Assembly: GCA_040218145.1 (NCBI GenBank)
Contig: JAVJQK010000021.1
Coordinates: 1 to 64,000, forward strand
Direction: 5' to 3'
DNA length: 64,000 nucleotides
Source of the DNA: Sandaracinaceae bacterium
GTDB taxonomy: Bacteria > Myxococcota_A > Polyangia > Polyangiales > Sandaracinaceae
Positions 16,800-37,880 of this stretch are shown here, in pieces. Under the pieces are notes generated by a model. The model saw only the letters and a program-made list of their open reading frames with translations. It was not told the origin of the DNA and did no database searches. Every line of letters starts with the position of its first letter. The stretch's first letter is position 1. The translations under genes and the position numbers were made by a program.

Positions 16800-17675
16800 A
16801 TGCATTTGAAGACGGCCTTCACGCGGGCGGCGCGGGCGATGCGCGAGGATGCGAAGCTGCACCTCGTCGCGGTCTCGAGCTTGACGGTGGCGTTCCTCTG
16901 CCTGGCCACGGCGCTCCTCGGCATGGCGAACCTCGGCGAGGTCGCCGAGGCGTGGGGGCGCACCGCCCGCATGAGCATCTACCTGCAGGACGGCGCGAGC
17001 GGCGACGACGTCGCGCAGCTTCGCTTGCTCCTCGAGGGGCTCCCCGAGGTGCGGCGGGTCGAGCACCACACGGGCGCCGACGCGCGGGCCGAGCTGGCGC
17101 AGGACGAGATGAGCGAGCTGTCGGGGCTCCCGGCCGACGTCTTCCCGGCGTCGCTGGAGGTCGAGCTCGCGGGCGGCACGGACACCGCGCGCATCGGCGC
17201 GGTCGCGGAGCGCATCTCGCGCTTCGAGGTCGTCGAGGACGTCGAGACCTACCATGGCTGGTTCGAGCAGCTCGCCACCCTGGTCTCGGCGGGGAAGATC
17301 ACCGCGGTGGCGCTGGCGGGCCTCGTGCTCCTGTGCGTGCTCTTCGTGGTGGGCAACACCATCCGCCTGGCCATCGCCGGTCGCCAGGGCGAGATCGAGG
17401 TGCTGAAGCTCTGCGGCGCGAGCGACGGCTTCGTGCGCGGACCCTTCCTGGTGGAGGGCGCGGTGCAAGGCTTCGTCGGGGCGTTGATGGCGGTCCTCCT
17501 GCTGTTCATCACTTTCCTCTCGCTGCGCACGCACATCGACGCCACCATCGCGGGCCTCGCGGGCATCCACACGGTGTTCCTCCAGCCCGGTGTGTCGCTC
17601 GCGCTCATCCTCGGCGGCGCGTTCATCGGGGCGGCGGGGAGCGCGATCTCGCTTCGTCGCTACATGGCGGTCTGA
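16800..17675 (+). CDS. ftsX: cell-division membrane protein FtsX
   Basis: 291 residues from ATG 16800, preceded by GGGGAGAGGACG. A cytosolic N-terminus, first membrane segment (about 23-43), an extracytoplasmic domain (about 45-160) rich in DxARxxLAQDE-type helices, then three more membrane segments separated by the conserved loop RQGEIEVLKLCGAS. This is the FtsX/MacB permease fold. The extracytoplasmic domain is expected to bind the EnvC-type activator encoded next; the ftsX TGA overlaps that gene's ATG. Confidence 0.95.
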   Translation: MHLKTAFTRAARAMREDAKLHLVAVSSLTVAFLCLATALLGMANLGEVAEAWGRTARMSIYLQDGASGDDVAQLRLLLEGLPEVRRVEHHTGADARAELAQDEMSELSGLPADVFPASLEVELAGGTDTARIGAVAERISRFEVVEDVETYHGWFEQLATLVSAGKITAVALAGLVLLCVLFVVGNTIRLAIAGRQGEIEVLKLCGASDGFVRGPFLVEGAVQGFVGALMAVLLLFITFLSLRTHIDATIAGLAGIHTVFLQPGVSLALILGGAFIGAAGSAISLRRYMAV

Positions 17676-18553
17676 TGCGTGCGCTCGGACTCTGCCTCGC
17701 GCTGACGCTCCTCCTCCCCGTGGGCGCCTCGGCGCAAGACGAGCTCGCCGACGCGCTCGGCACACTCGAGCGCGCGAGCGCCGAGCAGGCACGCGTCCAG
17801 GCGGAGATGCAGGCCCTGGTCGGCCAGCGCGGCGCGTCCCGTCGTCGACTGCGCGAGCGGGTGCGCGCGCTCCACCGCATGCGTCGCGCGGGCGCCCTGC
17901 CTCTCTCGGGCGGCTTCGATGCGCTGCTCCGGCACCAGTCGCGCCTCAACCGCCTCGAGCAGCTCGTGCGTCGAGACGTCGAGGGGCTGCACGGCATGGA
18001 GCGTCGCGTGGCGGCGCTGCGCGACGAGAGCGTCCGGCTGGCCGCCGAGGTGGAGGAGGGCGAGCGGCGCGCGGCCGCGCTCCGCGAGGCGGAGGAGTCA
18101 CAGCTCGCGCTGCTCTCGCAGATGATGGAGGACCCGGCCTCGTACTCGGACGGCTTCGGGCTCCGGCTCAGCGACGGAAGCGCGCCGGCGGGGCTCGCCT
18201 CGCAGCGCGGAAACCTCCCGCTGCCCGTCGGCGGCTCCGCGCGGATCGCGACGGCCGAGCGCGAGGGCGGCGCGGGGCTCGAGCTCGCCGCGACGGCCGG
18301 CGTCAGCGTGCGCGCGGTGCACACCGGACGCGTCGCGTACGCCTCCCAGCACCCCGCCTACGGGAGCCTCGTCATCCTCGACCACGGCGACGGCCACTAT
18401 ACGGTCTACGGCGGGCTCGGAGCCGTGGCGGTGCAGGTGGGGCAGCAGGTGCCGGCGAACACGCCGCTCGGCACGGTGGGCGGGCAGCCGCTCTTCTTCC
18501 AGGTTCGCCGGGGGACCCGCGCGCTCGACGCTCGGGCTTGGCTGGGGCTTTAG
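17675..18553 (+). CDS. EnvC-like peptidoglycan hydrolase activator with degenerate LytM domain
   Basis: 292 residues. Signal peptide ending ASAQ, a long coiled coil (about 22-150) and a C-terminal M23/LytM-type domain (about 180-292). The zinc ligands of active M23 enzymes are absent: the HxxxD region reads GLELAATAG, the YGHL region reads VYGGLG, and the HLHFE motif reads PLFFQVRRG. By family logic it is a non-enzymatic EnvC-type activator of amidases, recruited by FtsEX to split septal peptidoglycan. The start overlaps ftsX (TGATG), which strongly supports the FtsEX-EnvC assignment. A repeat element begins on its stop codon. Confidence 0.9.
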   Translation: MRALGLCLALTLLLPVGASAQDELADALGTLERASAEQARVQAEMQALVGQRGASRRRLRERVRALHRMRRAGALPLSGGFDALLRHQSRLNRLEQLVRRDVEGLHGMERRVAALRDESVRLAAEVEEGERRAAALREAEESQLALLSQMMEDPASYSDGFGLRLSDGSAPAGLASQRGNLPLPVGGSARIATAEREGGAGLELAATAGVSVRAVHTGRVAYASQHPAYGSLVILDHGDGHYTVYGGLGAVAVQVGQQVPANTPLGTVGGQPLFFQVRRGTRALDARAWLGL

Positions 18554-18785
18554 TTGTTGGGAGGGGCTTTTCAAGCCCCTCCCCCCCGCGGCGCCGGCGC
18601 GACGGTCCATCGCTCCGGTGCTCCGCACCTCCGCGAGGGACCGCCGCGCCGGCTCTGCGGGGCCCCCCCACCCAAGTCGGGCGGCTGCGCCGCCCGTGTC
18701 CCGCGCTCCGCGCGTGAGCCACGCGGCTCGCGCTTTCGCTTCGCGAAAGCTGGCCGCCCGCTGCCGCGGGTCAGCCGCTTGGGGG
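18550..18785 (+). repeat. structured repeat element, copy A
   Basis: About 236 bp, nearly identical to 37245-37485. It begins on the stop codon of the EnvC-like gene (TTAGTTGTTGGG). Stems in order: 18559-18583 (GGGAGGGGCTT/AAGCCCCTCCC, loop TTC); 18593-18608 with 18638-18653 (16 positions, one mismatch) enclosing GGTGC/GCACC; 18679-18685 with 18689-18695 (loop TGC); 18711-18716 with 18720-18725 (loop AGC); 18732-18739 with 18743-18750 (loop TTC). No credible coding frame. The first hairpin could act as a terminator, though no T-run follows it. Confidence 0.85.
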
Positions 18786-18972
18786 CGCGACTTCGCTTCG
18801 CTCGTCGCTGACGGCGGTCGCGACTTCGCTTCGCTCGTCGCTGACGGCGGTCGCGACTTCGCTTCGCTCGTCGTTGACGGCGGCCGCGACTTCGCTTCGC
18901 TCGTGCTGACGGCGGCCGCGACTTCGCTTCGCTCGTCGTTGACGGCGGCCGCGACTTCGCTTCGCTCGTGGC
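18786..18972 (+). repeat. 33-bp tandem array after element copy A
   Basis: Six units, the last cut short, of about 33 bp with core CGACTTCGCTTCGCTCGTCG followed by a spacer close to YTGACGGCGGY. Each core starts CGAC and ends GTCG, so every unit can form a small hairpin. One unit is a base shorter. The frames through it are Arg/Ser/Glu-poor junk without start signals. The core CGCTTCGCTCGTCG is shared with the array at 37486. Confidence 0.85.
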
Positions 18973-19055
18973 TTGGAGGATCGCGGCACGGCACGAGTTC
19001 GCTTCCCGTTTCCATGGCTTCGCGATGGATTCGGGTCCGGATCTGGGCGGCGCGC

Positions 19056-19426
19056 CCGCCTCCGCCTCCGCCTCCGCTCCCGCTTCCGTTGCCGCCTCCG
19101 CTCCCGCTCCCGTTGCCGCCTCCGCTCCCGCTCCCGTTGCCGCCTCCGCTGCCGCTCCCGTTGCCGCCTCCGCTGCCGCTCCCGTTGCCGCCTCCGCTCC
19201 CGCTCCCGCTCCCGCTGCCGCTCCCGCTCCCGCTCCCGCTCCCGCTCCCGCTGCCGCTGCCGCTCTCGCTGCCGCGCCCGCTCTCGCTGCCGCTCCCGCT
19301 CTCGCTGCCGCGCCCGCTCTCGCTGCCGCTCTCGCTGCCGCTGCCGCTGCCGCTCTCGCTGCCGCTCTCGCTGCCGCTCCCGCTGCCGCTCCCGCTCCCG
19401 CAGCCGCAGCCGCTCCCGCTCCCGCC
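19056..19426. repeat. hexamer-based low-complexity array 1
   Basis: About 370 bp of CCGCTC, CCGCCT, CCGTTG and CCGCTG hexamers in mixed order, with higher-order units such as CCGCCTCCGCTCCCGTTG. All frames stay open because of the composition, giving Ala/Pro/Ser or Arg-only polypeptides, so I call no gene. It follows the 33-bp array by about 85 bp; together 18554-19490 holds only repeat DNA. Confidence 0.85.
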
Positions 19427-19490
19427 GCGCGCGGGTCTCTAGCCGAGATCGGCCGCAACCTCCGCGCGCCATCGGCGATGGGAGCGCGTC

Positions 19491-32550: not shown

Positions 32551-34545
32551 ATGCTGCGTCGAATCCATGGTTGCGCGCTCTGCCTCCTCCTGGCCATCGC
32601 GTGTGATCCCGCCACCGTGCGCCCCGTTCGAGACGGAGGAGGTGACTCCGGGCGCGACCCGGGCGCCGACACGGACGGAGACGGCATCTCCGACGCGGAC
32701 GAAGGCATCGACACACGCCGCGACACCGACGGCGACGGGACGCCGGACTACCAGGACAGCGACAGCGATGGCGACGGCATCCCGGACTCGGTCGAGGCCG
32801 GCGACAGCGACCCCGCTACGCCGCCGCGGGACGCCGACGGAGACGCAACCCCGGACTACATCGACCTCGACTCGGACGACAACGGGATCCCGGACGCCGA
32901 CGAGACCGACGGGGACGTCGACGGCGACGGGCTGCCGGACTTCGCCGACACCGACGACGACAACGACTTGATCAGCGACGCGCAAGAGCTCGCGAGAGGC
33001 GCCTCGCCGCCGAACGACAACGACGGTGACGGGATCCCGGACTACCAGGACAACGACAGCGACAACGACTTCATCCTGGACGGGCACGAGCGCGATCTCG
33101 ACACCGACGGCGACGGCATCCCGGACGTCTTCGATCTCGACAGCGACGACGACGGGATCCCGGACGAGACCGAGGCGGGCGACCTCGACGTCGCGACCCA
33201 GCCGGTCGACACCGACATGGACGGCACGCCCGACTTCCGCGACTTCGACAGCGACAACGACGGGCTGAGCGACGCGGACGAGGTGACCATCCACGGCACC
33301 TCGCCGACGGCCGAGGACTCCGACGGCGACGGCGTCAGCGATCTCATCGAGGTGAGCGCCGGCACCGATCCCGGAGACGGGATGGACAGCCCGCGCACCC
33401 GCGGCAACTTCGTCTTCGTCGTGCCCTTCGAGGAGCCGCCGATGCCGGAGCGGGACACGCTCAACTTCAGCACCAGCATCCAGTTCGCGGACATCTACTT
33501 CCTCTTCGACCAGTCGGGCTCGATGGGCGGGGAGATCAACGCGCTGCGCACCGCGGTGACCACGGTCATGGGCAACCTGCAGTGCACCGACACGGGGACC
33601 GCCTGCATGCGTGACTCGGAGTGCGGCGCGGCCGAGATCTGCAGCCCGTTCTCCAACACGTGCATCGAGGATCCGGGCATGAGCTCGTGCATCCTCAGCC
33701 CCTGGACCGGCACCGGCTTCTACGAGGCCTACTACGAGAACCGACTCTCGCTGCAGGCCGACCCGGCGATGACGAGCGCGCGGATCCGGACGTCGACCTT
33801 CGGCGGCACCGAGGAGCTCTACGAGGCGCTGCACGGCGTGGTCGACCCCACGCGCTCCGGGACGGACGCGCGCGGCTGCACGGGCCCGATGCCGCCCGGG
33901 TTCATCGGCTGCCCGTCGTTCCGCGCCGAGGCGGTGAAGATCCTCGTCGCGTTCACCGACGAGGACAGCGACGGCGGCTTCACCGCGTCCGACACGGGGG
34001 CGGCGCTGGCTGGCGCTGGGATCTCCATGATCGGCGTCTGGAGCGGCTCGCCGGGCTCGTCCGCCCGGAACGAGCTCCGCGACGTGGTCCGCGAGTCGGG
34101 CTCGCTCGACCGCACGGGTCAGCCGCTCCTCTTCGAGGGCCAGGACTCCTCGGTCGTGCCCGCGGTCACCATGGCCATCAACGAGATCGTCGAGGGCGTG
34201 CCGCTGCGCGTGACCATCGACGCGGTCGACGAGCCGGACGACGCCGGGGACTCGCTGCAGTTCATCGACCGGCTCGAGACGAACACCACGGGCGCGGGCT
34301 GCACGGCCATCATGACCGAGGACAGCGACGGCGACGGCGTGCACGAGACCTTCCCGGAGGTCACGCCCGGCACGCCGGTCTGCTTCGACGTGGTGGCCCG
34401 GCAGAACGACTTCGTGATGCCGACCTCCACCCCGCAGATCTTCATCGCGCGGCTCACGGTCTACGGAGACGGCTCGCCGCTGGACAGCCGCCTCGTCTAC
34501 TTCCTCGTCCCGCCGGAGATCATGGGTCCCGGCGGCCCGATGTGA
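32551..34545 (+). CDS. TSP3-repeat and VWA-like lipoprotein
   Basis: 664 residues from ATG 32551 (MLRRIHGCALCL). Signal ends LAIAC. Residues about 35-280 are thrombospondin type 3 calcium-binding repeats (DTDGDGxPDxxDxDSD type, around a dozen). A von Willebrand A-like domain follows, with a MIDAS DxSxS at Asp320-Gln-Ser-Gly-Ser, Thr in FGGTEEL and Asp in FTDEDSDGG. A beta domain ends the protein. Calcium-stiffened stalk carrying a VWA head is the natural reading; surface adhesion is an inference. Confidence 0.85.
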   Translation: MLRRIHGCALCLLLAIACDPATVRPVRDGGGDSGRDPGADTDGDGISDADEGIDTRRDTDGDGTPDYQDSDSDGDGIPDSVEAGDSDPATPPRDADGDATPDYIDLDSDDNGIPDADETDGDVDGDGLPDFADTDDDNDLISDAQELARGASPPNDNDGDGIPDYQDNDSDNDFILDGHERDLDTDGDGIPDVFDLDSDDDGIPDETEAGDLDVATQPVDTDMDGTPDFRDFDSDNDGLSDADEVTIHGTSPTAEDSDGDGVSDLIEVSAGTDPGDGMDSPRTRGNFVFVVPFEEPPMPERDTLNFSTSIQFADIYFLFDQSGSMGGEINALRTAVTTVMGNLQCTDTGTACMRDSECGAAEICSPFSNTCIEDPGMSSCILSPWTGTGFYEAYYENRLSLQADPAMTSARIRTSTFGGTEELYEALHGVVDPTRSGTDARGCTGPMPPGFIGCPSFRAEAVKILVAFTDEDSDGGFTASDTGAALAGAGISMIGVWSGSPGSSARNELRDVVRESGSLDRTGQPLLFEGQDSSVVPAVTMAINEIVEGVPLRVTIDAVDEPDDAGDSLQFIDRLETNTTGAGCTAIMTEDSDGDGVHETFPEVTPGTPVCFDVVARQNDFVMPTSTPQIFIARLTVYGDGSPLDSRLVYFLVPPEIMGPGGPM

Positions 34546-36978: not shown

Positions 36979-37248
36979 ATGGAACGCATGAGCTGGGACG
37001 ACATCTGTCACCGCGACGAGTTCCGCGGCCGCTGGGTGGCGCTCGACGAGGCGCGCTACGACGAGGACTCCGGTCGGGCGACCGAGGGCTCGGTGGTGGA
37101 CGTCGACGACGACCTCGTGGAGCTGTGCACCCGGATCCGTGAGTCGGAGCACAAGAACTGCGCGATCCTGTTCTGCGGGGAAGACGGTGCGCAGGAGCCG
37201 CCGGGCGCCACGAGCGACGAAGACCCGTTCCAGCACACGGCGCATTAG
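36979..37248 (+). CDS. small acidic protein, 89 residues
   Basis: Starts at ATG 36979 (MERMSWDDICHRDEF) with GGGAGACGCCG upstream. The sequence has a compact, apparently folded middle: FRGRWVALDEARYDE, then GSVVDVDDDLVELC and HKNCAILFCG, followed by a short disordered tail. It looks like one small alpha/beta domain with three Cys. I cannot name a family. Repeat element copy B begins on its TAG stop codon. Confidence 0.6.
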   Translation: MERMSWDDICHRDEFRGRWVALDEARYDEDSGRATEGSVVDVDDDLVELCTRIRESEHKNCAILFCGEDGAQEPPGATSDEDPFQHTAH

Positions 37249-37485
37249 TTTTTGGGCGGGGCTTTTCAAGCCCCTCCCCCCCGTTGCGCCGGCTCGACGG
37301 TCCATCGCTCCGGTGCTCCGCACCTCCGCGAGGGACCGCCGAGCCGGCTCCACGGGGCCCCCCCAACCCAAGTCGGGCGACTTCGTCGCCCGTGTCCCGC
37401 GCTCCGCGCGTGAGCCACGCGGCTCGCGCTTTCGCTTCGCGAAAGCTGGCCGCCCGCTGCCGCGGAGGATCCGCTCGGGGGCGCG
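37245..37485 (+). repeat. structured repeat element, copy B
   Basis: About 240 bp, nearly identical to 18550-18785, same strand, again beginning on the stop codon of the preceding gene (TTAGTTTTTGGG). Equivalent stems: 37254-37278 (one mismatch); 37288-37303 with 37333-37348; 37375-37381 with 37385-37391; and the two later hairpins. Relative to copy A a G-C pair became T-A in the long stem (37294/37342) and a G-C pair became A-T in the third (37380/37386). A few loop and linker bases also differ. Confidence 0.85.
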
Positions 37486-37880
37486 ACGTCGCTTCGCTCG
37501 TCGCGGGGGGCGACCTCGCTTCGCTCGTCGCGGGGGGCGACCTCGCTTCGCTCGTCGCGGGGGGCGACCTCGCTTCGCTCGTCGCGGGCGACCTCGCTCT
37601 GCTCGTCGCGGGGCGCGACGTCGCTTCGCTCGTCGCGGGGCGCGACGTCGCTTCGCTCGTCGCGGGCGACCTCGCCTTGCTCGTCGCGGGGCGCAACGTA
37701 GCTTCGCTCGTCGGCGACCTCGCCTCGTTCGTCGGGGGCGACCTCGCCTCGTTCGTCGGGGGGCGCCCTCGCATCGCTCGGCGGGGGGCGACCTCGCTTT
37801 GCTCGTCGCGGGGCCTCGCTTGCGGGCGGCGACCTCGCTTTGCTCGTCGCGTCGCTCGTCGCGGGGCCAGGCGTGGCGCG
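37486..37880 (+). repeat. degenerate tandem array after element copy B
   Basis: Roughly 14 degenerate units of 18-29 bp built on CGACCTCGCTTCGCTCGTCG with G-rich spacers (CGGGGGG, CGGGG). The units are more variable than those after copy A, with T and A substitutions (CTTTGCTCG, CTCGTTCG), and several are shortened. Frames through it are open by composition only. It ends a few bases before the stop of the Ser/Thr kinase gene. Confidence 0.8.

Follow-up and report, generated by a model that had tools for sequence, protein, structure and literature searches.

The closest described systems are REPs, which in their classical form are defined by a GTAG or CGTC tag together with a flanking RAYT, according to the accessible part of PMC3733652. 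The same text places conv-REPs, such as GTAG-1 of P. entomophila and CGTC-1 of S. wittichii, mostly less than 20 bp from an ORF 3′ end. In E. coli, 446 of 4,072 predicted REPs and 260 of the 496 in an earlier set are 15-20 nt or less from the 3′ end of an ORF, as given in the accessible part of PMC12306157. It is difficult to establish why REP-like repeats cluster at stop codons, because the effects of insertion preference and of selection can rarely be separated. Insertion of IS200/IS605 elements takes place on the 3′ side of a short motif, with a fixed orientation and a hairpin close by, and group IIC introns prefer sites behind terminators.

We analysed a window (the whole stretch of DNA under study, 64,000 nt) from a Sandaracinaceae genome, termed G000, which comprises 11.06 Mb in 148 contigs. 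No description of repeats of the kind reported here was found for Sandaracinaceae in the open-licence literature searched, including the accessible parts of PMC12306157, PMC3733652, PMC2267715, PMC2817692 and PMC2229807. The window carries two copies, A (18550-18789) and B (37245-37485), of a family that we call E1, and these are 92-93% identical. As the earlier note on this DNA had observed, the ungapped homology begins at TTAG, which contains the TAG stop of an EnvC-like gene in one place and of an 89-codon gene in the other. Both host frames have coding-type codon use, and the remaining frames upstream of A and B are without it. The 89-codon gene gave no match in a Pfam search and is conserved in G039, a MAG of the same species that is approximately 99% identical to G000. 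The features of the two copies are as follows.

17675-18553, + strand: EnvC-like gene (Peptidase M23; Pfam PF01551, E 2.5e-17), host of copy A
18551-18553, + strand: TAG stop of the EnvC-like gene
18554-18558, + strand: T-rich tract (TTGTT) of copy A
18559-18583, + strand: first hairpin (M1) of copy A
18559-18772, + strand: multi-hairpin core of copy A
18780-18970, + strand: locus-specific tandem hairpins behind copy A, of the CGCGACTTCGCTTCGCTCGTCGC type
36979-37248, + strand: 89-codon gene, host of copy B (coding score of this frame +0.30, other frames negative)
37246-37248, + strand: TAG stop of the 89-codon gene
37249-37253, + strand: T-rich tract (TTTTT) of copy B
37254-37278, + strand: first hairpin (M1) of copy B
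37279-37357, + strand: long variable hairpin (M2) of copy B, with many compensatory changes among copies
37373-37391, + strand: third hairpin (M3) of copy B
37429-37445, + strand: fourth hairpin (M4) of copy B, common to the sibling family E1b
37480-37866, + strand: locus-specific tandem hairpins behind copy B

A scan of G000 for the first hairpin of E1, with up to three mismatches allowed, returned 28 places. Four of these belong to E2, an element with a GGGGCTGTCCCAGCCCC hairpin that was initially taken as an E1 copy. E2, which carries terminal inverted repeats, proved to be an element in its own right and was excluded from the counts, which leaves 24 E1 hairpins. Two contig ends of one locus with identical sequence across the stop (C4 and C136) were merged, and five secondary tandem copies (C33b, C104b, C104c, C108b and C141b) were excluded, so that 18 leading independent copies were counted. 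Gene calls in all counts derive from a codon-usage model, not from annotation. When all copies were tabulated against the nearest upstream stop, as the earlier note had proposed, the GGGGC hairpin core was found to start 8-18 nt past the stop of a same-strand gene of coding type in 17 of the 18; the lone exception, C102b, lies 208 nt from the stop. For comparison, 5.1% of random intergenic position/strand pairs fall no more than 18 nt after a same-strand stop, and the chance of the E1 placement relative to random intergenic sites is about 1e-21. The stop is TGA at ten of the 17 sites, TAG at six and TAA at one, and E1 copies take one fixed orientation to the gene in front. The host genes are ordinary ones; from reading their translations, we take them to include those for AhcY, IF-2, CarD-like and NtrC-like proteins. 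For most copies other than A and B, homology starts a few nucleotides later, at the T-rich tract. The observation is confirmed and extends across G000, and the near-constant placement at stops points to a precise rule of insertion or retention at gene ends.

It had also been suggested that the stop might be provided by the repeat as a 3′ tail, and that orthologues with and without the element should be compared. In other genomes of the family, orthologues without it end at the equivalent residue (EnvC at seven loci, AhcY at six and IF-2 at seven), and E1 therefore sits just past a native stop and the C-terminus is not its product. The EnvC stop is TGA in relatives and TAG in G000; the last bases are therefore changeable, a point in favour of a stop contributed by the element. 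Pointing the same way, tandem units begin with CTGAG, like the first copy, in G007 (one of three genomes from other Sandaracinaceae genera considered here, with G004 and G003), and TGAGCTGAG stands ahead of the hairpin at three G004 loci (L281, L291 and L316). With a CTGAG of its own in the G007 tandem units and at a few G004 loci, the repeat can overlap or duplicate a stop, but the creation of C-termini is not supported. Three different stops occur among the 17 sites and the secondary copies in G000 come without the stop, both of which argue against a stop-supplying module. We consider such a module very unlikely overall, and for G000 it is already mostly refuted.

The E1 sites have the motif [A/T][C/T]T-R-R, in which TRR comes from the stop. 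The two letters [A/T][C/T] precede the stop at 16 of 17 E1 sites vs 143 of 665 called genes, and the last codon is NAY at 13 of 17 vs 62 of 665; the control genes were called in 829 kb of G000 and end in TGA (553), TAG (101) or TAA (11). T makes up 78% of the 106 nt that lie between stop and hairpin, compared with 13% of the first 7 nt after 283 control stops with a free flank. The earlier idea of a precise target or a 3′-UTR module is supported by the placement of 17 of 18 copies at stops, from this target-like motif and from replication in other families and genera. The motif combined with loss of intragenic copies is insufficient to explain 16 of 17 insertions, because stops account for only 66 of the 158 extragenic sites that bear the motif (P about 9e-6).

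Read in order, an E1 locus consists of the stop, the T-rich tract, the first hairpin GGG[A/C]GGGGCTTTTCAAGCCCCTCCC, a C-run, M2, M3, M4 and tandem hairpins. The homologous part comprises the tract (about 4-14 nt) and an approximately 215-nt core of four hairpins. Tandem hairpins, often found behind the core with spacers that vary by locus, obscure its right end. The core of copy B folds with a z value of -7.5 relative to shuffles, and among 19 aligned E1 copies 17 of 50 consensus pairs are changed on both sides with pairing kept. Rfam gave no match at gathering scores in the window, and around the element it returned two matches at chance level; no match was found in the plasmid and phage collections searched. 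E1 is best explained as a non-coding, REP-like composite palindromic repeat.

The earlier note had remarked that the first hairpin occupies the place expected of a terminator, and both this 3′-end position and the strength of the hairpin would suit ordinary intrinsic terminators that are repeated by chance. The position fits, but the anatomy does not. An intrinsic terminator is a hairpin rich in G+C with a run of T behind it, whereas E1 has its T-tract ahead of the hairpin on the + strand and a C-tract after it; a terminator scan makes no call there on either strand. Moreover, at several loci of the sibling family (L233, L242, L250 and L258) a separate terminator-like hairpin already lies ahead of the element. 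Chance repetition of terminators is, on these grounds, highly improbable.

RNA made from the reverse strand was considered on the basis of raw G-U counts in M2 (43 pairs on the reverse strand vs two on the forward), and was rejected when shuffles did not support it. The same count would suit retroposition, in which DNA copies of an antisense RNA, bearing an A-rich heteropolymeric 3′ tail, are made at gene ends. The tract is an A-rich tail when read on the opposite strand, G000 has one RVT_1 gene, and 5′ truncation would explain why a truncated first copy, with its far end missing, opens arrays C33, C104 and C141 of E1 and L101, L252 and L255 of E1b. These truncations can, on the other hand, be explained by slippage between GGCCC repeats. 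When folding is corrected for composition, four families show no consistent preference for either strand; the G-U excess is due mainly to a small number of shared columns, and no target duplication was seen. Retroposition is hardly credible given these results.

E1b, the sibling family, also resides in G000; it joins GGAGGGYCTGAACGCAGRCCCTCC to the same fourth hairpin as E1 and occurs in 62 non-identical contexts. It forms 44 chain heads, of which 38 were kept; one is at a contig edge, and five with an element body of their own in front (L096:3211, L100:3027, L104:2601, L244:64 and L253:348) were removed by eye. Eighteen of the 38 heads lie no more than 20 nt after a stop, eight lie behind a terminator-like stem with a T-tract (as called by a simple scan for stems that had no control), and two are behind tRNAs called by ARAGORN, tRNA-Ala and tRNA-Met. 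The other ten are mixed: one is 5 nt behind an SRP RNA, one follows a tRNA-His-like sequence recognised by eye only (L257), two come after stops at 28 and 37 nt, one adjoins the 5′ side of a tRNA-Pro, and five are without explanation. Altogether eight of 38 heads are not directly after a recognised 3′ end, and the NAY motif is not shared by E1b sites. Because E1b also follows the 3′ ends of tRNA and SRP RNA genes and terminators, the common factor is the gene 3′ end and not translation alone.

A sequence search in 37 relatives gave matches in five, all of them short (no more than 75 nt). The family genomes were scanned with a degenerate hairpin, GGAGGGnC...GnCCCTCCCC, with the reversed pattern as control. 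This hairpin occurs 25 times in G004, 21 times in G007, six times in G003 and 25 times in G039, while the five remaining family genomes have 0-4 each; the reversed pattern is found 0-1 times per strand. Of the 23 G004 hairpins fetched (from 25), 21 start 5-11 nt after a stop, one is 7 nt behind a truncated copy and one is 157 nt away. All 21 G004 sites have C or T before the stop, vs 21 of 60 other genes. In G007, where 18 of 21 hairpins were fetched in 16 regions, 12 lie 6-12 nt after a stop, two of these behind host genes with a low coding score; the other six are two secondary copies and four located behind another repeat. The one region fetched from G003 holds two hairpins, the first of them 7 nt behind SRP RNA. 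In other genera the hairpin skeleton thus recurs with other loops and bodies and behaves in the same way. Three G007 loci (L298, L304 and L306) carry a different repeat, starting GAGAGGGAGAAAGAATCG or similar, at or a few bases from stops. We also note that the SRP RNA genes at L237 1407-1524 and L317 2018-2114, from two genera, have hairpins of differing sequence 5-7 nt behind them.

Selection for a 3′-end hairpin is the main rival to targeted insertion, and the two may act jointly. If retention acted on its own, insertion would be loose and selection would keep those hairpins that tune the host gene, through ribosome stalling, 3′ protection or insulation. The share of copies at stops exceeds the prediction from motif and gene avoidance, an NtrC-like orthologue (77% identity) bears elements of different families in G000 and G004, and the SRP RNA gene bears an element in both G000 and G003, all of which favour retention. 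So does the finding that E. coli REPs no more than 15 nt from a stop stall ribosomes and lower translation (accessible part of PMC12306157). Stalling is possible at stops but not behind tRNA and SRP RNA genes, where a hairpin is unable to work via ribosomes. In addition, the 4-11 nt spacing, the shared motif and the foreign T-tract require precise insertion too, and native 3′ UTR is absent between stop and tract. Retention by itself is thus possible but not probable.

We lean modestly towards mobile, REP-like palindromic repeats with a short target motif, probably inserted by a trans-acting transposase and retained at gene 3′ ends. The transposase would attach the end that carries the T-rich tract and hairpin to the 3′ side of a short YTRR-type target. 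Copies inserted at other positions would be lost, and those at gene 3′ ends would be kept as harmless or useful hairpins, which might protect the mRNA 3′ end or block antisense or read-through transcription. Tandem amplification and exchange of hairpins by recombination would follow. Two Y1 transposase matches were found in G000, in a 148-contig assembly in which a gene could have been missed. One is an IS200-like TnpA gene and one a RAYT-like gene (L112, C113:225027-225389, and L113, C3:8482-8637), and neither is beside the repeats studied here. An IS200/IS605 or RAYT-type enzyme would fit insertion 3′ of a motif in fixed orientation, but none of 78 hairpin matches, E1 or E1b, is on either contig. 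A rather unlikely alternative is machinery that recognises gene 3′ ends as such (stops, tRNA and SRP RNA ends, terminator T-tracts) and leaves a non-templated T-rich junction, possibly via an RNA or R-loop intermediate, with a skeleton that has diversified across several Sandaracinaceae genera.

Comparison of G000 with G039 bears on present mobility. Twenty G039 regions were fetched, and 19 match a stretch of G000. The sole difference among these 19 is an E2 insertion of approximately 197 nt, filled at L318 1946-2142 (G039:C1) and empty at L180 19174-19176 (G000:C76), with TCC on both sides. E1 or E1b shows no difference in presence or absence at 18 comparable loci, so that the comparison gives no sign of present mobility. 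At the copy-B locus of G039, M2 is replaced by a different hairpin relative to G000, although the strains are 99% alike; this suggests that copies have exchanged hairpins, with due caution since chimeric joins within repeats can arise in assemblies of short reads. E2 copies have AGTAC-type inverted-repeat ends, and some overlap a TAG stop by that end (L092-L095).

With REPs, E1 and E1b share a short, numerous and intergenic character (24 E1 hairpins and 62 E1b contexts; those leading sites that were examined are intergenic), palindromes near ORF 3′ ends, tandem and mosaic arrays, and compensatory changes in stems. A location no more than 15-20 nt from the ORF 3′ end is likewise common to REPs, E1 (17 of 18) and the G004 hairpins (21 of 23). 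Unlike REPs of 20-40 nt, the E1 unit is far longer, with its multi-hairpin core and T-rich tract; it keeps a single orientation to the gene and, in 17 of 18 cases, a place at the stop, and sibling E1b copies also lie behind RNA genes and terminators. E1 heads read T-tract-GGG and lack the GTAG/CGTC tag, the only first hairpins with GTAG belonging to individual E1b copies, among them L108, L230 and L241, and no RAYT gene between two inverted REPs was found in G000. MITEs, of which E2 is an example, are likewise short, non-coding and dispersed, but for E2 there are inverted repeats at the termini and a filled/empty site pair showing a repeat of 3 nt, neither of which was seen for E1. The likeness to group IIC introns is in site preference; no Rfam intron match occurs in the element or window, and the element contains no RT frame. 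E1 is a relative in kind of the known stop-proximal REPs that is longer, differently built and more strictly placed. Its near-absolute position, readable motif and foreign junction tract, its recurrence across families and genera, and the copies behind non-coding RNA genes separate a role based on translation from one based on transcript ends, and make the question testable.

Other repeats are present in the window. A long CCGCTCCCG/CCGCTGCCG array (19040-19440) adjoins the tandem hairpins of copy A, and a stretch that resembles it extends from 52521 onward. Positions 32721-33282 hold tandem coding repeats rich in D-x-D-x-D, which by eye are calcium-binding-like.
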